Source: Leptolinea tardivitalis (GTDB lineage: Bacteria; Chloroflexota; Anaerolineae; Anaerolineales; Anaerolineaceae). From it: 64,000 nt of DNA. Shown piece by piece: positions 21,035 to 30,839 of this stretch. Each line of letters begins with the position of its first letter. Position 1 is the stretch's first letter. The notes under the pieces were generated by a model. That model saw only the letters and a program-made list of their open reading frames with translations. It made no database searches and was not told the DNA's origin. The position numbers were made by a program, and so were the translations under genes. Location of the stretch: the NCBI RefSeq assembly GCF_001050275.1, contig NZ_BBYA01000008.1, forward strand, positions 310,001 through 374,000, given 5' to 3'.

Positions 21035-21114
21035 ACAATTTACGGGATCCTAAACACTCCTTATTCATTTGTTAACATTGCCTTCCTGCCTTCTTAAACA
21101 TGACTGGTTATGAT
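21032..21114 (+). promoter_or_regulatory. Candidate phosphate-regulated promoter of pstS
   Basis: Four TTAACA/TAAACA-like elements occur at 21032, 21051, 21072 and 21094, spaced 19, 21 and 22 bp, about two helical turns. The last lies 8 bp before the -10-like TATGAT (21109-21114), and no consensus -35 is present. Repeats replacing the -35 are the arrangement expected of a PhoB/PhoP-activated promoter. The binding motif in this lineage is not known to me, so this is inference from spacing and position. Confidence 0.5.
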
Positions 21115-21148
21115 AATGGCTATGAAAACAATCCAAAGGAGTAAAGAT

Positions 21149-22192
21149 ATGCGTTCAAAATTGATGATTTTTGTCTCCCTTTTTGCGGCCATTGGTATGT
21201 TCCTGACTGCCACTGCCCCGGCTTCACCGGTTTTTGCTGCTCCTGCCGCAGAACCGACCAAAGCCGCCGAACCAACAAAAGCAGCAGTAAAAGAAGTTGA
21301 ACTTCCAGAAGTTGATCCGTCCAAATTAAAAGGTGATATTTATTCCGCTGGTTCTTCAACAGTGGGACCTCTGTCTGAAGCCATCCAGGAGCTTTTTGTA
21401 CAGGATGGTTATACCGGTGAGATCAAGAATGACATCATCGGAACGGGTGGTGGTTTCGAACGGTTCTGCAAGACCGGTGAAACCGATATTGCCAATGCCA
21501 GCCGTGGAATCAAGGACGAAGAAAAAGCCAACTGCGCCAAATTAAATCCCGCCCGCAACCCGATTGCCTTCCGTGTAGGCACAGATGCGATCACCATTGT
21601 CGTCAATAAGAAAAATGATTTCCTGAAAAACGTTACCACCGAAGAATTGGGCAAAATCTTCACCACGGCTGAAAAGTGGTCTGATGTCAATCCAAAATGG
21701 CCTGCCCAGCCTATCAAACGGTTTACTCCCGGAACCGACAGCGGCACCTTTGACTTCTTTGCTGAATTTGTTATCCAGAAACCCCAGAAACTTGCCAAGC
21801 TGGATGATGCCAAGAAACTTTTGCTCAATGCCAAGAATACCCAGGCCAGCGAAGATGACAATGTCCTTGTGCAGGGTGTGGAAGGCGATCAATACGCCAT
21901 TGGTTACTTCGGGTTCGCTTATTACCAGCAACAACAAGACCGCCTGAATGCCATCTCCATCAACGATATTGCACCCAGTTTTGAGACTGCAGAATCTGGT
22001 AAGTATCTGCTCTCCCGCCCGCTGTTCATCTACTCTGATGCAGCCATCCTGAAAGCTAAACCCCAGGTTGCCGGTTTCATCAACTACTACCTGACCAATG
22101 TTGACAAAGTTATCGACAAGGTTGGTTATTTCCCGGCCAGTGATGAAGCTCTGAATGCTTCCAAACAGGCTCTACTGGATGCCTTGAAATAA
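21149..22192 (+). CDS. pstS: Phosphate ABC transporter substrate-binding protein PstS
   Basis: Extracytoplasmic phosphate-binding protein (347 aa). A Sec signal peptide occupies about residues 1-32 (MRSKLMIFVSLF, hydrophobic core, VFAAP), followed by an Ala/Glu/Pro/Thr/Lys spacer. Phosphate-binding family motifs are IYSAGSSTVGPLSE, GTGGGFERFC, ANASRGI and FTPGTDSGTFDFF. There is no lipobox Cys, so it is either secreted or held by other means. The ATG at 21149 is chosen because AAAGGAG precedes it by 7 nt; ATGs at 21110, 21116 and 21122 lack such a site and 21110 overlaps the -10 element. It is the first gene of pstSCAB-phoU. Confidence 0.96.
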   Translation: MRSKLMIFVSLFAAIGMFLTATAPASPVFAAPAAEPTKAAEPTKAAVKEVELPEVDPSKLKGDIYSAGSSTVGPLSEAIQELFVQDGYTGEIKNDIIGTGGGFERFCKTGETDIANASRGIKDEEKANCAKLNPARNPIAFRVGTDAITIVVNKKNDFLKNVTTEELGKIFTTAEKWSDVNPKWPAQPIKRFTPGTDSGTFDFFAEFVIQKPQKLAKLDDAKKLLLNAKNTQASEDDNVLVQGVEGDQYAIGYFGFAYYQQQQDRLNAISINDIAPSFETAESGKYLLSRPLFIYSDAAILKAKPQVAGFINYYLTNVDKVIDKVGYFPASDEALNASKQALLDALK

Positions 22193-22235
22193 CAAAACAA
22201 CGGCAAGACCTGATTTATAGATAGATAATTTCTCC

Positions 22236-22265
22236 GGGCTGGTCTGTGGAAACACAGGCCAGCCC
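22236..22265 (+). other. GNRA-capped hairpin between pstS and pstC
   Basis: GGGCTGGTCTGTG at 22236-22248 pairs with CACAGGCCAGCCC at 22253-22265 (13 bp, one T-G wobble) around a GAAA tetraloop. There is no T-run after it. Such a stem between a binding-protein gene and its permease genes typically stabilises the upstream mRNA or dampens readthrough, giving more PstS than PstCAB. Confidence 0.7.
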
Positions 22266-22286
22266 AAGTCTGAAGAATGGAAAAAC

Positions 22287-23252
22287 ATGCGTGAACAGAT
22301 CATGAACCATACGCTAAGCACGGTACAAATCAAACCAGCTTCACGGGTTCCTGAATTTCTTCGCAAGAAAAAACGTTGGAATGAAATCCTCATTCAGGGA
22401 TTTTTATTTTTTTGTGGATTTGTGTCGATACTGACAACCATCGGAATTGTATTTGAACTGGGAAAAGAATCTCTCCTGTTTTTTGCCAATCCAGATGTCA
22501 GTCTGCTTGAATTCTTTACAAACACCCGTTGGCAGCCTTCCATAGGGGAATTCGGTATCTTGCCGCTGGCTACATCTACCCTGTTGACCACGTTGATTGC
22601 CATGATCGTAGCGTTGCCCGTGGGGTTGAGTGCCGCCATTTTTCTTAGCGAATATGCTTCATCCAAAGCGCGCAGTGTATTAAAACCTATCCTGGAGATA
22701 CTGGCAGGTGTTCCGACGGTAGTCTACGGTTATTTTGCACTCACGTTCATGACGCCGGTATTGCGGGGTATTTTTGGCGAACAGAATGTGGAAATTTACA
22801 ACACACTCTCTGCCGGTCTTGTCATGGGGATCATGATTCTTCCTCTGGTAAGTTCAATGAGTGAAGATGCTCTTACGGCTGTTCCGCGTTCATTGCGAGA
22901 AGCCGCCTATGGATTGGGAAGTACCCGTCTGGAAACAGCGGTACAGATTGTGGTTCCTGCCGCCCTCTCTGGCATTATTGCTGCTTTTATTATTGCCATT
23001 TCGCGAGCCATCGGTGAGACAATGATTGTGGCCATCGCCGCCGGGTCTGGCTCAAATTTCACTTTTAATCCATTCAAGGCCGCAGAAACCATGACGGGGT
23101 ATATTGCTCGTATCAGCGGTGGTGATGTGGGTTATGACACTCCAGATTACAACAGTATTTTTGCCATAGGGCTGGTGTTATTCCTTGTAACCCTCGGGTT
23201 AAATATTCTTAGCCGCAGACTTTCTGCAAAATACCGTGAGGTATACGAATGA
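22287..23252 (+). CDS. pstC: Phosphate ABC transporter permease PstC
   Basis: Membrane subunit of the high-affinity phosphate importer (321 aa). Six hydrophobic segments are visible, the first at about residues 38-62. The cytoplasmic EAA-type coupling loop reads [21 protein letters not shown] (starting at about 202), and [18 protein letters not shown] is a conserved PstC segment. It overlaps pstA by 4 bp. Confidence 0.95.
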
Positions 23253-24481
23253 ATGAATATACTGATCTTGCCGGAGAAAGTAATACCAATCTACAAAAGA
23301 GACACCGTGATAGTAAAATCTGGCGGACGATTTTTTATGCCTCGACGGCAGCGGCCATTATTATTCTGGCTATCCTTATTTTAAGTATAGTTAATCAGGC
23401 ATTCGGTCTGGTTGTCTTGAAAAACACGGTGGAACCCGAAAAAATATCTTCGGTGCCGCTGGAACAGTTAAGCAGCCAGGATTTGATCAAAATCTTGAAG
23501 AAAAATCTCACAAGCAATCGATACAAGACCATTGATCGTGATATGCCCTTTACTGCTAGAAGCCAGGCGGACCTGGTCGATCTGGTCATTGCAGAAGTAG
23601 TCAAACCTACCGTGGTGGATAGTTATCATCTGGATGTATCAATTCTGCATAGGAATGAAATCATGGCCAGAGCGGCCGAAAAGTACCCGAATGGGCATGT
23701 GGAATTTCATTCCTGGCTGAACCCTGAATTCATCACCAGAAGTATGTCAAGCACGCCGGAACTGGCCGGGGTACGCACGGCCATATTCGGTTCTCTTTGG
23801 ATCATTTTGATCACCGTCCTGGTGGCTTTCCCAACCGGTGTTGGAGCTGCGATCTATCTTGAAGAATATGCGGCATCCAACCGGATCAACAAGATCATTC
23901 AAACCAATATCGATAACCTGGCCGGAGTGCCCTCCATCATCTATGGGATTTTGGGATTGGCCATATTTGTCCGTGGCTTGGGCTACTTTACCGGAGGTGG
24001 TTTTCTCGGTAGCGGTGAGACCGGCGGCAGAACGATCCTCTCTGCAGGATTGACCATGGCTTTGTTGATATTGCCCATCCTGATTATCAACGCACAGGAA
24101 GCCATCCGGGCTGTACCAAGATCTCTTCGAGAGGCAAGCTATGGGTTGGGTGCCACCAAATGGCAGACCATCTGGCACCATGTTTTGCCTTCGGCTCTTC
24201 CCGGTATTCTTACCGGTACTATTCTTGCAATATCCAGAGCTATTGGTGAAACGGCTCCGTTGATCCTGGTAGGAGCTTCTTCGTTCATCAACCGCGACCC
24301 AAGCAGTGTGTTCTCCCGGTTTACAGCGCTGCCAATCCAGATTTATAACTGGACAACACGTCCACAAGACGAATTCAGAAATATCGCGGCAGCAGCCATT
24401 CTGGTATTATTAGTCTTACTCTTATCTCTTAATGCGTTTGCCATCCTTATGCGCAACCGCTTTACCAGGCGGATTTCATGA
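23249..24481 (+). CDS. pstA: Phosphate ABC transporter permease PstA, long form
   Basis: Second membrane subunit of the phosphate importer. The core matches PstA ([21 protein letters not shown], and coupling loop [20 protein letters not shown]). At 410 residues it is about 110-130 residues longer than typical PstA. The extra part lies after the first membrane segment (about 28-52) as a hydrophilic stretch of about 115 residues (roughly 55-170) before the next segment at about 172-198, so it should face outside. It overlaps pstC and pstB by 4 bp each. The extra domain may contact PstS. Confidence 0.94.
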
Positions 24482-25266
24482 TCGATCATCAAACACAAAC
24501 AAAGCCTCCCATTATTAGTGCTGAAGACCTTTGCATTTTTTATGGTAATTTTCGTGCTGTAAAGAATGTAGATATGAAAATCGTTCCCAATCAAATTACG
24601 GCCATTATCGGCCCTTCAGGATGCGGGAAAAGCACGGTTCTGCGCTCTTTCAACCGGATGAACGATTTCATACCCAATTGTCATGTCACCGGAAAGATAA
24701 CATTTCACGGACATAATATTTATGACGAAGACGTTGACCCCGTCCAGGTTCGGCAGAAGATTGGTATGGTTTTCCAAAAGCCCAATCCGTTCCCAAAATC
24801 GATTTTTGATAATGTAGCCTGGGGATTGAAGATCAATGGTATGAAAGGCGACTTGAGTGAACCGGTTGAACAGGCGTTGAAACAGGCTGCCCTGTGGGAT
24901 GAAGTCAAAGACCATTTGAAGAAATCAGGGTTGTCACTTTCAGGAGGGCAGCAGCAGCGGCTGTGTATTGCCCGGGCGCTGGCGGTGAAACCAGACATCA
25001 TCCTCATGGACGAACCATGTTCAGCACTTGACCCGATTGCCACATTAAAAATTGAAGATTTGATGCGCGAACTTTCGAAGGACTATACCATAATCATCGT
25101 CACCCATAATATGCAGCAGGCTGCCCGCGCATCCGATTACACAGCTTTCTTTACCATGGATTCAGACCGGGCAGGGGTCATGGTAGAATACGGTGAAACC
25201 AGCCACATCTTCACCAACCCGCAAGACAAGCGGACGGAAGATTACATCACCGGGCGGTACGGATAA
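24478..25266 (+). CDS. pstB: Phosphate ABC transporter ATP-binding protein PstB
   Basis: ATPase subunit of the phosphate importer (262 aa). Walker [10 protein letters not shown] is at 45-53, the Q-loop at about Q100 ([11 protein letters not shown], typical of PstB), the ABC signature LSGGQQQR at 154-161 and Walker [13 protein letters not shown] at 175-186; the switch His is in [14 protein letters not shown]. It overlaps pstA by 4 bp and is followed by phoU. Confidence 0.97.
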
Positions 25267-25297
25267 AAGTTCGGGTGACAGAGAGCCAGGTGAATCT

Positions 25298-25975
25298 ATG
25301 ACGCGAGAAGTATTAACCCAACAGATAAAGAAGCTGCTGGATGAGGTCTTATTACTCGGTAGTATGGTAGAACAGGCCACATTCAATGCTATTGCCACTC
25401 TTAAAAATCGGGATATACATGCTGCCCGACAGGTATATGATGATGATCAAACGATTAATGAGAAGCGGTTTGCCATTGAGAATGCCATCATCATTACAAT
25501 AGCAACACAACAGCCGATGGCGCGCGATTTACGTACACTGGCCGCCATACTTGAAATCATTACAGAACTGGAGCGCATGGGTGATTACGCCAAAGGTATT
25601 GCCAAGGTGACCATGCGTCTGGGTGATGCTGAACTGCCCATACCCATCCGAGAAATTGAGCAAATGGGAGAACTTGGGTTAGGGATGCTCCACCGCGCAC
25701 TGAGCGCCTTTGTGAATGAAGATGCTCGCACAGCCAGCAAGATACCGGCAGAAGATGATGCCGTCGATGCCTTATATAATGAGATTTACAGTGAATTGGT
25801 TAATGAAATGATCGCCGATCCCCGGTTGATCGAATCAATCAACCTGCTCCTCTGGGTGGTTCATAACCTGGAACGGCTGGCTGATCGCGTGACCAACATC
25901 TGTGAACGTACCGTGTTCATCACTACCGGAGAATTGATGGAGATGGACACGGCAGACGAAGAAGAAAACGAATAA
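25298..25975 (+). CDS. phoU: Phosphate signalling protein PhoU
   Basis: All-helical regulator (225 aa) that links PstSCAB activity to the PhoR kinase and represses the Pho response in high phosphate. Two PhoU repeats are visible, each with the D-R-x-x-R / metal-binding pattern: ARDLRTLAAILEIITELERMGDYAKGIAK (first 20 residues starting at about 78) and INLLLWVVHNLERLADRVTN (starting at about 183). I chose the ATG at 25298 behind AGGTGA; an in-frame upstream ATG at 25193 lies inside pstB. Confidence 0.95.
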   Translation: MTREVLTQQIKKLLDEVLLLGSMVEQATFNAIATLKNRDIHAARQVYDDDQTINEKRFAIENAIIITIATQQPMARDLRTLAAILEIITELERMGDYAKGIAKVTMRLGDAELPIPIREIEQMGELGLGMLHRALSAFVNEDARTASKIPAEDDAVDALYNEIYSELVNEMIADPRLIESINLLLWVVHNLERLADRVTNICERTVFITTGELMEMDTADEEENE

Positions 25976-26034
25976 TTTTCATTGCTATATAATGAATAAT
26001 AAAACTTCTTTCCAAACTATAAGGCAGGAGAAGG

Positions 26035-26745
26035 ATGTTATCTACTGGCAACTATAAAGGAAAACTGATAGTCGTTGAAGGAATTGACGGCAGCGGCAAG
26101 TCAACGCAAATCGATCTGCTTCACAAATGGCTGCTTTCTAAAGGACATTCTGTCTATTTCAGTGAATGGAATAGTTCAGAACTGGTGAAATCGACCTCGC
26201 GGATGGCGAAAGAGAAGAAGATGTTTACCCCCACCACTTTCAGCCTGATGACAGCCACGGATTTTGCCGATCGCTGGGAACGATACATTTTCCCTTTGTT
26301 GAAGGCTGGCGGAATCGTTCTGGCTGACCGGTATGCCTTCACGGCATTTGCCCGCGATGTAGCTCGTGGAGTTGACCCGGCCTGGGTACGCAGCATGTAT
26401 TCCTTTGCTCCTATGCCTGACCTTACCCTCTATTTCCGCGTCCCGTTGGATGTAGCTGTGGACCGCATCCTATCAAGCCGTGCCAAGATCAAATATTATG
26501 AGGCTGGCATGGACCTGGGTCTGTCGGATAACAAGGTTACAAGTTTCCGACTATTTCAACAACGGGTTATCGACGAGTACGAGAAAATGGTTGATGAATT
26601 TGGCATGACCGTCATAGATGGAACAGAATCTGTTCAAAAAGAACAAAAACTTGTTCGACAACTGGTGACCCGCATTTTACGTGGTTGGGAAGGGCTGCCA
26701 AATCCATTGGTTCGTTCTCGCCGCCGTTCAACGGTTGTGGCATAA
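26035..26745 (+). CDS. Thymidylate-kinase-like P-loop kinase, intact Walker A
   Basis: A 236-residue protein with the thymidylate kinase fold. Walker A EGIDGSGKSTQ spans about residues 15-25, ADRYAFTAFARD is at about 97-108 (kinase DR(Y/H) motif), and PDLTLYFRVPLDVAVDRI is near 128-145. The REPGG motif that contacts dTMP in true thymidylate kinases is absent; its place holds FSEWNSSELV. It is therefore unlikely to be an ordinary dTMP kinase. It has a strong AGGAGAAGG site and TATAAT at 25988-25993. A paralogue follows after 12 bp, then a CHAD protein. A role in phosphate or polyphosphate metabolism is inferred from the neighbours only. Confidence 0.82.
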   Translation: MLSTGNYKGKLIVVEGIDGSGKSTQIDLLHKWLLSKGHSVYFSEWNSSELVKSTSRMAKEKKMFTPTTFSLMTATDFADRWERYIFPLLKAGGIVLADRYAFTAFARDVARGVDPAWVRSMYSFAPMPDLTLYFRVPLDVAVDRILSSRAKIKYYEAGMDLGLSDNKVTSFRLFQQRVIDEYEKMVDEFGMTVIDGTESVQKEQKLVRQLVTRILRGWEGLPNPLVRSRRRSTVVA

Positions 26746-26757
26746 GGGGAGGTAACG

Positions 26758-27453
26758 ATGCATTCAGTTGATTTTTACGGAGCTGGTTTCCCCTATAATC
26801 CTATCAAAGAACTCGAAGGGAAATTGATCGTACTCGAAGGAACCGATGGTGTCGGTCGTTCGACCCAGATACAGTTGCTGCGCCGCTGGCTGGAAGATGA
26901 AGGGTATGCTGTTAGCGATACTGGACTTCACCGGTCACCGTTAACCCAGGCAGGATTGGAATCTGCAAAGAATGGTCATACGCTCAGTCCATTAACAATG
27001 AGTCTTTTCTATGCCACTGACTTTGCCGACCGGCTGGAAAACCAGATCATACCTGCTTTGAAAGCCGGTTTTGTTGTGCTCTCAGACAGGTATTTCTTTT
27101 CTATTATTGCTCGTGATATTGTGCGAGGTGCTGACCCGGATCGGGCAAGGTCAATTTATGGATTTGCCCTTAAACCTGATCTGGTAATCTATATGCGTTC
27201 TGACGTGGATTCGCTGGTTGCCCGATTAGTTCACGGCCGTGGTTTTGACTACTGGGAATCAGGAATGGATATTCGCTGTGCCGATAATATTTTTGACAGC
27301 TTTGTCATCTATCAGGGAAAACTGATCGAGCAATTTGACAAGATGTCAGATGAATTCGGTTTTGTGACAATTGATGCTACCCGTTCTGTACAGGCGGTCT
27401 TTGGGGATTTGAAAGCCCAGATAAAGAACCTGTTTGAACGATTACCTGAATAA
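26758..27453 (+). CDS. Thymidylate-kinase-like paralogue with Lys-to-Arg Walker A
   Basis: Tandem paralogue (231 aa) of the previous protein, with shared segments ARDIVRGADP, PDLVIYMR, and Y-W-E-S-G-M-D (matching Y-Y-E-A-G-M-D). Its Walker A reads EGTDGVGRSTQ at about 27-37: the invariant Lys is Arg34, which usually cripples ATP hydrolysis or transfer in P-loop kinases. The SDRYFFSIIARD motif is kept. About 17 extra N-terminal residues precede the P-loop. The REPGG motif is absent here too. GGGAGGT precedes the start. A pseudo-kinase partner for its neighbour is plausible. Confidence 0.8.
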   Translation: MHSVDFYGAGFPYNPIKELEGKLIVLEGTDGVGRSTQIQLLRRWLEDEGYAVSDTGLHRSPLTQAGLESAKNGHTLSPLTMSLFYATDFADRLENQIIPALKAGFVVLSDRYFFSIIARDIVRGADPDRARSIYGFALKPDLVIYMRSDVDSLVARLVHGRGFDYWESGMDIRCADNIFDSFVIYQGKLIEQFDKMSDEFGFVTIDATRSVQAVFGDLKAQIKNLFERLPE

Positions 27454-27509
27454 AACCGGTATGTAATCAATATATTCGATCAGGCTGGCGGTTTTTTGAG
27501 GAGAAGCTG

Positions 27510-28526
27510 GTGAAACAAAAACCGGAAGAAAGCATCCGCATTTATGCCGCTGGCCTGTTCTTAAAGCAACTGGATGTTATTTCATCTGAAATTCCTGGTG
27601 TTCGAAAACAGCGGGATATTGAAGCTGTCCATAGGATGCGTGTATCCACACGACGAATGCGCGCCGTGTTGGACGTGTTTCAGGATTGTCTTCCTGCCAA
27701 ACGTGGAGTGATCTGGGAGAAGGAAATTCATGGACTCACCAGTGCACTGGGGGCTGCCCGAGATACAGATGTTCAGATTGATTCCATATCTCACATCCTG
27801 AAAAATATCCCTGATCCTCAATTTGGTCCGGGGATACGGAGGTTATTGCTTCGTCTAAAACAGAAACGAAACAAAATACAAGACCGGTTATTAAAGCGGT
27901 TGACAGCTTATGAGCATTCCGGGGTGGCAGAAGAGATGCGGGCGGCATTTGAAGGAGCCGCTGCCCGAAGTTCAGATATCTATTTATATACTCCAGCCCT
28001 GTATCAACGTTCTTTTGACACAATCCATTCGGCATTTGAAACATTTTCTTCCTATGAGGAAAGTATTCAAGATCCTGCCAACGTTGCTGACCTTCATGCC
28101 ATGCGGATTGCCGGAAAAAATCTGCGGTACACGATGGAATGTTTTTCTTCTATTTATGCCAACGAATTGAAAAACACATTGGCCATCATGCGTACTGCTC
28201 AGGAATTGCTGGGTTCTATCCATGATTGCGATGTCTGGATTCAGTTCTTGCCAGGCTTTGTGGAGGAGGAGCATCAGAAAACTCTGGCTTATTTTGGCCG
28301 TGATCGCTACTCCAATCACTTCATTCCCGGTGTTAATTATCTGCTATCGTTGAAACAGGGGAATCGGGAAGAACAGTATAAGGAATTCATTGAAAAATGG
28401 TATCTTTGGAAAACTGAAAAGGTCTGGGAAAATTTATTCCAGGTTCTGCAGGTTCCCTTTTTTAATAAAAAGGAAAATATTCCTTTATCTCAAAATAATC
28501 CGGTACAAAGCGGAGGAAACACATGA
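27510..28526 (+). CDS. CHAD domain protein (polyphosphate-binding)
   Basis: A 338-residue all-helical CHAD (conserved histidine alpha-helical domain) protein. The two symmetrical halves carry the basic signature: HRMRVSTRRMRAVLDVF (about 41-57) and LHAMRIAGKNLRYTMECF (about 195-212), whose His, Arg and Lys residues line the basic groove that binds polyphosphate in characterised CHAD proteins. The start is a GTG behind TGAGGAG. The gene overlaps the next by 4 bp. The chain Pst-PhoU, kinase pair, CHAD supports a polyphosphate function. Confidence 0.92.
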   Translation: MKQKPEESIRIYAAGLFLKQLDVISSEIPGVRKQRDIEAVHRMRVSTRRMRAVLDVFQDCLPAKRGVIWEKEIHGLTSALGAARDTDVQIDSISHILKNIPDPQFGPGIRRLLLRLKQKRNKIQDRLLKRLTAYEHSGVAEEMRAAFEGAAARSSDIYLYTPALYQRSFDTIHSAFETFSSYEESIQDPANVADLHAMRIAGKNLRYTMECFSSIYANELKNTLAIMRTAQELLGSIHDCDVWIQFLPGFVEEEHQKTLAYFGRDRYSNHFIPGVNYLLSLKQGNREEQYKEFIEKWYLWKTEKVWENLFQVLQVPFFNKKENIPLSQNNPVQSGGNT

Positions 28527-29419
28527 AAGTTGCATTGCTTTCTGATATTCATGGCAATTTGCCAGCACTGGAGGCAGTTCTAGCCCATGCCGGAGAAATG
28601 AAAGTGAAACAAATCTGGAACCTGGGAGATTTCACTGGCTTTGGTGCAAAGCCGGATGCAGTAATAAAGCTGGTTAAGAAACATAAAGCCATCAGCATCA
28701 TTGGTAATTATGACCAGAAGGTACTGAAAGTTCCAGAAAAAAGTGATGAGTGGAAAAATACCAAGGTCCCTGAGAAATGGTTTTCATTCCACTGGTCTTA
28801 TGAACAACTTTCAAAAAAAAGCATTGACTACTTGAAAAGTTTGTCTGAAAATCATCGTGAGACAATAAAAAACTGGAAAGTCCTCTTTTGTCACGGCAGT
28901 CCAGAAGCCATTGATGAAGCATTAAACGATGAGACACCGCAGGAACGGTTACGCGATCTGGCCAAAAAAGCTCATGCCAACATCATTCTTTGCGGACATT
29001 CCCATGAACCCTTCATGCGTTTTGCGGGAGGATCTATTTTTATTAACCCCGGCAGCGTCGGCCGGCCATTTGACGGGGACCCGCGGGCATCATATGCCGT
29101 ACTATCCATAAAAAAGCATAAGGTGGAAGTGGATTTCTTTCGGATTGATTATGATGTAGAGAAAGCTGCCGAAGCTCAAAATGCAGCCGGTCTTCCGGTT
29201 GAATACGCTGAAATGACTCGCCGCGGTATCAGTCTGGATGATATTCAAAAAGAAAACCACTCAAAAGAAAAGAGAAGAGAAGACCAGGATCAAGCTGATG
29301 CGTTGCCAATATCAACTCCTGAAGAGAAAGTGGAAATAACCCGAGAAGTTGTTCAACCGACCGAGATTGTAAAGAAACCCGCCCCCCGCCGAAAAAAAGT
29401 TACAGAAGAGCAATCATGA
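28523..29419 (+). CDS. YfcE/MJ0936-like metallophosphoesterase with charged tail
   Basis: A 298-residue calcineurin-like phosphoesterase. Metal ligands are visible as D8-x-H10 (SDIHGN), Asp36 (GDFTGFG), Asn62 in GNYD (usually GNHD), His124 (CHGSPE) and CGHSH at about 157-161. The catalytic domain ends near residue 215. The last 60 or so residues are highly charged and low in complexity (KENHSKEKRREDQDQ and KKPAPRRKKVTEEQ), probably disordered and able to bind polyanions. It overlaps both neighbours by 4 bp. Candidate substrates are phosphodiesters, nucleotides or phosphate chains. Confidence 0.88.
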   Translation: MKVALLSDIHGNLPALEAVLAHAGEMKVKQIWNLGDFTGFGAKPDAVIKLVKKHKAISIIGNYDQKVLKVPEKSDEWKNTKVPEKWFSFHWSYEQLSKKSIDYLKSLSENHRETIKNWKVLFCHGSPEAIDEALNDETPQERLRDLAKKAHANIILCGHSHEPFMRFAGGSIFINPGSVGRPFDGDPRASYAVLSIKKHKVEVDFFRIDYDVEKAAEAQNAAGLPVEYAEMTRRGISLDDIQKENHSKEKRREDQDQADALPISTPEEKVEITREVVQPTEIVKKPAPRRKKVTEEQS

Positions 29420-30030
29420 TTTTCCCTGATGAGACCAATCCCGAAGAAGATGTCATTCTTTCTCAGGTAATCGACCTGGCAAAAACGTGTGAATCTGAAT
29501 ATGAACACGTGATTCACGTGTCAAAATTGACTTTACGTCTATTCGATGAACTGGCAGAATGGCATCATCTGAGGCATGAAGACCGATTCATTTTGCAATG
29601 TGCGGCCATCCTGCATGACATTGGATGGGTGGAAGGATGGAAAAACCATCACAAGACGGCTTTGCGGATCATCCTTGAAACCAAATTGCTGCCATTTGAT
29701 CATCATAACCGTTTGATTATCGGGTCTATTGCTCGTTATCATCGTAAAGCTTTACCGGTTATTTCTCATGATCATTTTGCATCAATGAATCCCGCTGACC
29801 GTAAACGTGTACAGATATTGGCATCCTTTCTACGGTTGGCCGATGGACTTGACCGCACCCACAGGGGAAAAATCCGTGATCTTGCCTGCAAGATAAAAAA
29901 GAATCGAATATTGATTTTTTGCTCTTCTGCGTTTCCCGCTGTTGAAGAATGGCGCGGGGGTATTGAAAAATCGGATTTGCTTTCATTGGTGACTGACAAA
30001 GAAATACAAATAAAAATAGTGGCTCTATAA
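29416..30030 (+). CDS. HD-domain protein resembling the Ppx/GppA C-terminal domain
   Basis: A 204-residue stand-alone HD-type domain. The metal motif is His67-Asp68 (AAILHDIGW) with an earlier His34 and a later Asp144 (LRLADGLDRTHRGKI). The RYHRKALP and ADGLDR segments match the C-terminal HD domain of exopolyphosphatase/GppA rather than ordinary HD phosphohydrolases. The actin-like catalytic N-terminal domains of Ppx are missing and not nearby. It overlaps the phosphoesterase gene by 4 bp. With a CHAD protein two genes upstream, a polyphosphate or (p)ppGpp role is likely. Confidence 0.85.
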   Translation: MIFPDETNPEEDVILSQVIDLAKTCESEYEHVIHVSKLTLRLFDELAEWHHLRHEDRFILQCAAILHDIGWVEGWKNHHKTALRIILETKLLPFDHHNRLIIGSIARYHRKALPVISHDHFASMNPADRKRVQILASFLRLADGLDRTHRGKIRDLACKIKKNRILIFCSSAFPAVEEWRGGIEKSDLLSLVTDKEIQIKIVAL

Positions 30031-30035
30031 ACGCT

Positions 30036-30839
30036 ATGGACGAACATCCCATCATTACCCTTTTAACTGATTTTGGATTGCGTGATCCGTATGTGGGTAT
30101 TATGAAGGGGATCATTTCGGGTATTGCTCCAAATGCAAAGATCATTGATCTGACACATTTGATTCCCCCACAGGATATTCGGGCGGGCGCCCTGGCACTG
30201 GACCGATCCTGCAAGTATTTTCCACCTGGCACGATACATCTGGCAGTTGTTGATCCGGGAGTAGGAACGGAACGACATGCTTTGGCTATGCGGATTGATC
30301 GTCAATTATTCATTGGTCCAGACAATGGTCTGTTTACCTTCATTATTCAGTGGGGAAAAGAAAACAGGAAGCAAGTAAAAGCGTTCAAAATAGAGAATCC
30401 ACGTTTCCGGCTTGAACCTGTGAGCCCGGTGTTTCATGGCCGTGATCTTTTCGCTCCGGCCGCCGCCTATCTGGCTGCTGGAGCCGCCCTGGAAGATTTT
30501 GGCCCTGAAATAACCAATCCTTTTGTTCTATCAATGGCTGTTACTGAACGTACCAGTAGTGGATGGGTCGGTGAAATCTGGGCAGTCGACCACTTTGGAA
30601 GTCTGGAGACAAACTTCGATAATACGTTGCTGTCAGGTTGTGATCCGAAACGCGCACGTATTCACATTGCAGAAAAAATTATTGATCGTTGGGTTACCAC
30701 ATTTGCCGAAGGAAAACCGGGGGAACTTGTTCTACTTATAGATAGCGCTGACCGATTATGTATCAGTGTGGTCAACGGCAGTGCTGCCCAAGAATTGGGT
30801 GTTGGAGTGGGAACTCCGGTCGAACTGTTGGTTTATTGA
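30036..30839 (+). CDS. S-adenosyl-L-methionine hydroxide adenosyltransferase family
   Basis: A 267-residue protein of the DUF62/SAM hydroxide adenosyltransferase family, which hydrolyses SAM to adenosine and methionine; relatives are the fluorinase and chlorinase. The family motifs are ITLLTDFGLRDPYVGIMKG (residues 6-24), AVVDPGVGTERHALAM, FIGPDNGLFT and FHGRDLFAPAAAYLA, followed by a C-terminal beta-barrel. It is 5 bp from the HD gene and appears to be the last gene of the phosphate block. It lacks an obvious link to phosphate; it may simply remove SAM or supply adenosine. Confidence 0.92.
   Translation: MDEHPIITLLTDFGLRDPYVGIMKGIISGIAPNAKIIDLTHLIPPQDIRAGALALDRSCKYFPPGTIHLAVVDPGVGTERHALAMRIDRQLFIGPDNGLFTFIIQWGKENRKQVKAFKIENPRFRLEPVSPVFHGRDLFAPAAAYLAAGAALEDFGPEITNPFVLSMAVTERTSSGWVGEIWAVDHFGSLETNFDNTLLSGCDPKRARIHIAEKIIDRWVTTFAEGKPGELVLLIDSADRLCISVVNGSAAQELGVGVGTPVELLVY

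Follow-up and report, generated by a model that had tools for sequence, protein, structure and literature searches.

Two adjacent genes in the window, the whole 64,000-nucleotide stretch of the Leptolinea tardivitalis contig that was analysed, carry the database label thymidylate kinase and are likely to encode the subunits of a heteromeric polyphosphate (polyP) kinase with a thymidylate kinase (TMK) fold. The product of the first gene, A, would be the catalytic subunit and that of the second, B, a non-catalytic or regulatory subunit, and the pair would replace the polyphosphate kinase PPK1. By analogy in gene arrangement, context and active-site residues, the pair is very probably the bacterial counterpart of PPK3 from Sulfolobus. 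The coordinates of the genes and motifs are given in Table 1.

Table 1. Genes and sequence motifs of the A-B locus, in window coordinates
Feature	Position	Strand	Remark
pstS, pstC, pstA, pstB (high-affinity phosphate transport)	21110..25266	+	names assigned from sequence; relatives also found upstream of other copies of the pair
phoU	25193..25975	+	listed GTG start overlaps pstB
Gene A, 236-aa P-loop kinase with a TMK fold, putative catalytic-type subunit	26035..26745	+	closest experimental structure: S. tokodaii ST1543 (2PLR)
Walker A of A, GIDGSGKST	26080..26106	+	codon at 26098-26100; 126/126 homologues have Lys
EWNSS motif of A, at the REPGG place	26164..26178	+	also in S. tokodaii ST1543, not in canonical TMK
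Lid segment of A, R149...K153...EAGMD	26479..26514	+	Arg/Lys conserved in A
Gene B, putative non-catalytic-type partner, 231 aa	26758..27453	+	own Shine-Dalgarno-like site
Walker A of B, GTDGVGRST	26839..26865	+	codon CGT at 26857-26859; 129/129 homologues have Arg
Lid segment of B, R-G-F-D-Y-W-E-S-G-M-D	27238..27270	+	Asp usually replaces the lid Lys of A
CHAD-domain protein	27510..28526	+	domain match
YfcE-type metallophosphoesterase	28523..29419	+	family match
HD protein with a match to Ppx/GppA exopolyphosphatase domain III	29416..30030	+	domain match
SAM hydroxide adenosyltransferase (DUF62-type), end of the same gene run	30036-30839		

The gene pair and its surroundings

A and B are 47% identical over 194 residues in a pairwise comparison, and both match the Pfam family Thymidylate_kin. 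An earlier, sequence-only reading had described the open reading frames, the Walker A motifs with lysine in the first copy and arginine in the second, the DRY and GMD motifs common to both, and the lack of the REPGG motif of true thymidylate kinases, and all of this was confirmed. At the place of REPGG, A has EWNSS and B has GLxRS, while the motif itself is present in a separate canonical thymidylate kinase encoded in the same genome. With respect to the equivalog model TIGR00041, which has a cut-off of 83.25 bits, A scores 89.0, B 73.8 and the canonical gene 167.8. The canonical bacterial enzyme resembles A and B in fold and core motifs but differs in that it contains REPGG, lacks both EWNSS and the ExGMD lid, and is encoded by a single gene elsewhere in the genome. 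A housekeeping TMK function of A and B was rejected on the absence of REPGG and the separate canonical gene.

The predicted structures are of high confidence (pLDDT 91.7 for A and 90.5 for B). The VIA match of A is S. tokodaii ST1543 (Z 28.4, rmsd 1.6, 205 aligned residues), and the best match of B is 5H70 (Z 27.4, rmsd 1.7, 204 aligned). ST1543, solved as 2PLR, 4NZY, 4RZX and 5H70, has 46% identity with A across the fold and is an A-type protein with GIDGSGKS, EWNSS and DRY motifs, but it was deposited as a dTMP kinase. The possibility that A and B belong to the PPK2 family was rejected, since neither matches PF03976 at E 0.1 and hhalign found a weak similarity confined to the P-loop. No PPK2 chain was among the 50 matches listed in each structure comparison (A and B), a result that excludes nothing. 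In the published comparison of a PPK2 structure, the nearest structures after the PPK2s themselves were S. tokodaii 2PLR/4NZY (PMC4748334).

The genes from pstS to the SAM hydroxide adenosyltransferase gene (21110-30839) are separated by short gaps or overlaps only, and B has a strong Shine-Dalgarno-like site of its own, GGGGAGG, within the 12-nucleotide gap after A, which makes an operon likely. No promoter or terminator signals above chance level were found. The GTG start listed for phoU lies inside pstB, so the true start is probably further in, more likely at an internal ATG. Genes resembling the terminal adenosyltransferase are found 3' of the pair in a few relatives. The 118 neighbours of the pair at some 30 further loci, the majority of them in other phyla, are most often CHAD (14), Ppx-GppA (7), histidine phosphatase (6) and PstS-like (6) proteins.

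Distribution of the pair in relation to PPK1, PPK2 and CHAD

The phylogenetic profile covered 298 Anaerolineae genomes (40 with and 258 without the pair) and 119 Acidobacteriota genomes (21 with and 98 without). In comparisons that, like the Fisher test, ignore kinship among the genomes, PPK1 was present in 8/40 Anaerolineae with the pair vs 154/258 without it (Fisher p 2e-6), and in 2/21 vs 53/98 Acidobacteriota. Counted in the same way, PPK2 was present in 26 of 32 PPK1-negative Anaerolineae with the pair vs 7 of 104 without it (n=136), CHAD in 26/32 vs 3/104 of the same genomes, and PPK2 in 15/19 vs 5/45 PPK1-negative Acidobacteriota. When permuted within families that contain genomes both with and without the pair, the associations with PPK2 (p 0.011) and CHAD (p 0.004) were retained; the exclusion between the pair and PPK1, taken alone, was weak and short of significance (p 0.07). 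Among 50 pair-bearing genomes, about two thirds of which are from outside Anaerolineaceae, PPK1 was found in 12, and the genome of the window itself lacks PPK1 and carries two genes for PPK2. The replacement is also seen within a single genus (g69), in which one genome has the pair without PPK1 and five congeners have PPK1 without the pair. Taken together, the pair is most likely a stand-in for PPK1 in many bacteria that lack it.

Eight Anaerolineae genomes carry both PPK1 and the pair, six of them from one family, f33. Six of the seven pair-bearing genomes of this family thereby run contrary to the general trend.

The best CHAD match lies within 10 kb of the pair in 20 of the 40 pair-bearing Anaerolineae genomes, and a CHAD gene lies within 10 kb of PPK1 in at least 13 genomes with PPK1. 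CHAD is thus a companion of whichever enzyme is there, the pair or PPK1. CHAD proteins bind polyP granules (PMC10892726). The explanation that these genes are chance neighbours was discarded on the recurrent gene context and the phylogenetic profile.

These data bear on the alternative that A and B form an auxiliary kinase pair for dTMP or another nucleoside monophosphate, co-regulated with the phosphate supply, in which A would be the kinase and B its regulator. The fold and the nearest families are those of thymidylate kinases and A exceeds the TIGR00041 cut-off, but B falls below it, REPGG is absent, a strong TIGR00041 match to a separate canonical TMK was found in 34 of 36 pair-bearing genomes, the profile follows PPK1, PPK2 and CHAD, and the neighbours are polyP genes. 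We therefore consider a nucleotide kinase pair unlikely. The phosphate and polyP operon setting and the replacement of PPK1 point most strongly to a polyP kinase pair, a function that the sequence-only reading had missed, and polyP/ADP is a more probable substrate than dTMP. Some activity on dTMP is possible, since the A-type protein of S. tokodaii was crystallised as a dTMP kinase.

The lysine-arginine split and the pairing of A and B

Relatives of the two genes were drawn from 80 genome contigs and from the Anaerolineae and Acidobacteriota genomes, and the counts cover the copies with a readable Walker A motif, 126 of A and 129 of B. The sequence-only reading had proposed to examine whether the arginine is fixed in the second copy, and had named lysine-bearing homologues of that copy as evidence to the contrary. 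The residue is arginine in 129/129 B copies, encoded by CGC (55), CGT (33), CGA (18), CGG (13), AGG (6) and AGA (4), and lysine in 126/126 A copies, encoded by AAG (65) and AAA (61). None of the readable B copies has lysine, and an isolated mutation or a sequencing error is thereby ruled out. The use of all six arginine codons indicates that selection acts on the amino acid. The B copies span Chloroflexota, Acidobacteriota, Armatimonadota, "Deltaproteobacteria" and others. The Walker A lysine is also present in 2PLR and in the genome's own TMK, and no Walker A arginine was found among the TMK-like genes of a viral control set.

Alignment columns in which A and B carry different characteristic residues are S20/V32, K22/R34, S47/R59 and Y155/W166. 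The lid lysine K153 is present in 98% of the A copies, and 79% of the B copies have aspartic acid at this position. The TDFADR motif, the two arginines of ARDxxRG and the ExGxD of the lid are fixed or nearly so in A, B and 2PLR, but not in the genome's own TMK, and B retains the DRY motif, the P-loop aspartic acid and ExGMD. The exchange of the Walker A lysine for arginine and the loss of the lid lysine would deprive B of two basic residues that should lie close to the phosphate in transfer, with the fold kept.

B is located directly behind A in all but one of 130 loci. The exception is L060, on a split contig, where B is seemingly alone and its A is found on another contig of the same genome. 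Likewise, A adjoins B in all genomes with B in the profile sample (40/40 Anaerolineae and 21/21 Acidobacteriota). One metagenome-assembled genome contains a natural in-frame A-B fusion in a single open frame of 452 amino acids (L033:793-2148). A and B are thus an obligate unit. In the phylogeny, B forms one side of a branch with an SH-aLRT support of 99, and 2PLR, which has EWNSS, is on the A side. The simplest reading is a single origin of B before it spread over several phyla, by descent or by transfer of the pair. The distances within A and B are correlated (mirror-tree r 0.74), an unadjusted value that shared ancestry alone could give.

A-type proteins are also found without B. A search of plasmids for relatives of the pair gave no match, and viral contigs contained a single A-type gene without B. 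It is located on a phage-like contig (L138:155-799), has the motifs GIDGAGKST, SWNSS and EAGMD, and adjoins genes that by eye resemble those for terminase and portal proteins. Two distant solo A-like kinases (L179 and L180), with RWASS or KWNSS and 38-42% identity to A, possibly represent a third subfamily; they are encoded by the Acidobacteriota genomes G454 and G409, which have PPK1 but no B. The phage protein and the distant copies suggest that B is not universally needed.

Another alternative is that both subunits are active and that the arginine of B is a tuned Walker A residue, for instance for polyP instead of ATP as the donor. B is under strong purifying selection and keeps DRY, the P-loop aspartic acid and ExGMD, which is beyond the needs of a pure scaffold. 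Against this, A never departs from the Walker A lysine, which 2PLR and the TMK of the genome have as well, the basic lid residue is usually gone from B, and the viral control set has no TMK-like gene with an arginine at this site. Two active subunits hence seem improbable. The sequence-only reading of an intact kinase next to a weakened partner is well supported by the residue split, the loss of the lid lysine, the obligate pairing, the fusion and the co-divergence; the active/regulatory pair which that reading proposed is supported as well, with B as a putative regulator of A.

Proposed function and comparison with PPK3

In the account by Hofmann et al. (a 2024 preprint and a 2026 paper in JBC), PPK3 of Sulfolobus acidocaldarius is reportedly a heteromeric polyP kinase of the TMK family, separate from PPK2. 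It is reported to be encoded by two adjacent genes annotated as thymidylate kinase, downstream of or beside ppx; saci_2019 is said to be the catalytic and saci_2020 the regulatory subunit, and the reaction is reportedly reversible, with ATP formation from polyP favoured. The pair described here is similar to PPK3, as reported, in arrangement, context and the split in active-site residues. Two adjacent TMK-type genes were found in 61/61 sampled genomes with B, the CHAD protein and the protein with Ppx domain III are encoded downstream, and hhalign assigned the pair to TMK (99.3%) rather than PPK2 (0.9%). The Sulfolobales protein with which A groups is S. tokodaii 2PLR, not one from S. acidocaldarius, and the pair differs from PPK3 in that it is bacterial and located in pst-phoU/CHAD operons.

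A distinct PPK-type enzyme from Sulfolobus has been reported (Hofmann et al., as cited in PMC13318637 and PMC11677633). Sulfolobales make polyP and have PPX but lack both PPK1 and PPK2 (PMC6864096, PMC7831078), and their CHAD cluster holds SixA, PPX and a 'dTMP kinase' (PMC10892726). The class II PPK2 enzyme PA3455 is alike in outline, as this polyP enzyme combines an inactive P-loop kinase domain with an active one (PMC8776046), but it belongs to the PPK2 family, to which the profile comparison does not assign the pair.

In the mechanism that we infer, including the reaction, the A-B dimer, the regulatory role of B and its lack of activity, A, with its intact Walker A lysine, DRY motif and basic lid, would catalyse a reversible phosphate transfer that connects ATP/ADP with the terminus of a polyP chain. 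B, which keeps the fold, DRY and ExGMD, is probably not catalytic at its own site because of the arginine in Walker A and the loss, in most copies, of the lid lysine. It would more likely partner A in a TMK-like dimer, and may bind polyP or a nucleotide and thereby activate or regulate A. The operon would link phosphate uptake (pst/phoU) to the storage (CHAD) and degradation (Ppx-like) of polyP. More tentatively, the pair could be the main polyP-synthesising system that replaces PPK1 across several phyla, with the arginine Walker A of B as a dedicated P-loop that binds polyP, not ATP, and holds the chain for the active subunit. It is very improbable that B is instead an adaptor that senses phosphate or polyP and acts on Pst/PhoU or CHAD, with an ordinary partner in A and a role of the pair in signalling and not in polyP metabolism: pstSCAB-phoU is directly upstream of the pair in many Anaerolineaceae, but beyond this family the pst genes are often missing or divergent while the pair is retained, and the replacement of PPK1 requires an enzyme.

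The bacterial spread of the pair, its replacement of PPK1 in two phyla and the arginine that all copies of the partner subunit have may be new. The two genes offer a clean pair of a putatively active and a putatively inactive kinase, set apart by one fixed residue change that is open to dissection, and many genes labelled as thymidylate kinase would be due for relabelling. PolyP is often found in bacteria for which no kinase is recognised, and the polyP kinase proposed here is a concrete candidate in Chloroflexota and Acidobacteriota that lack PPK1.
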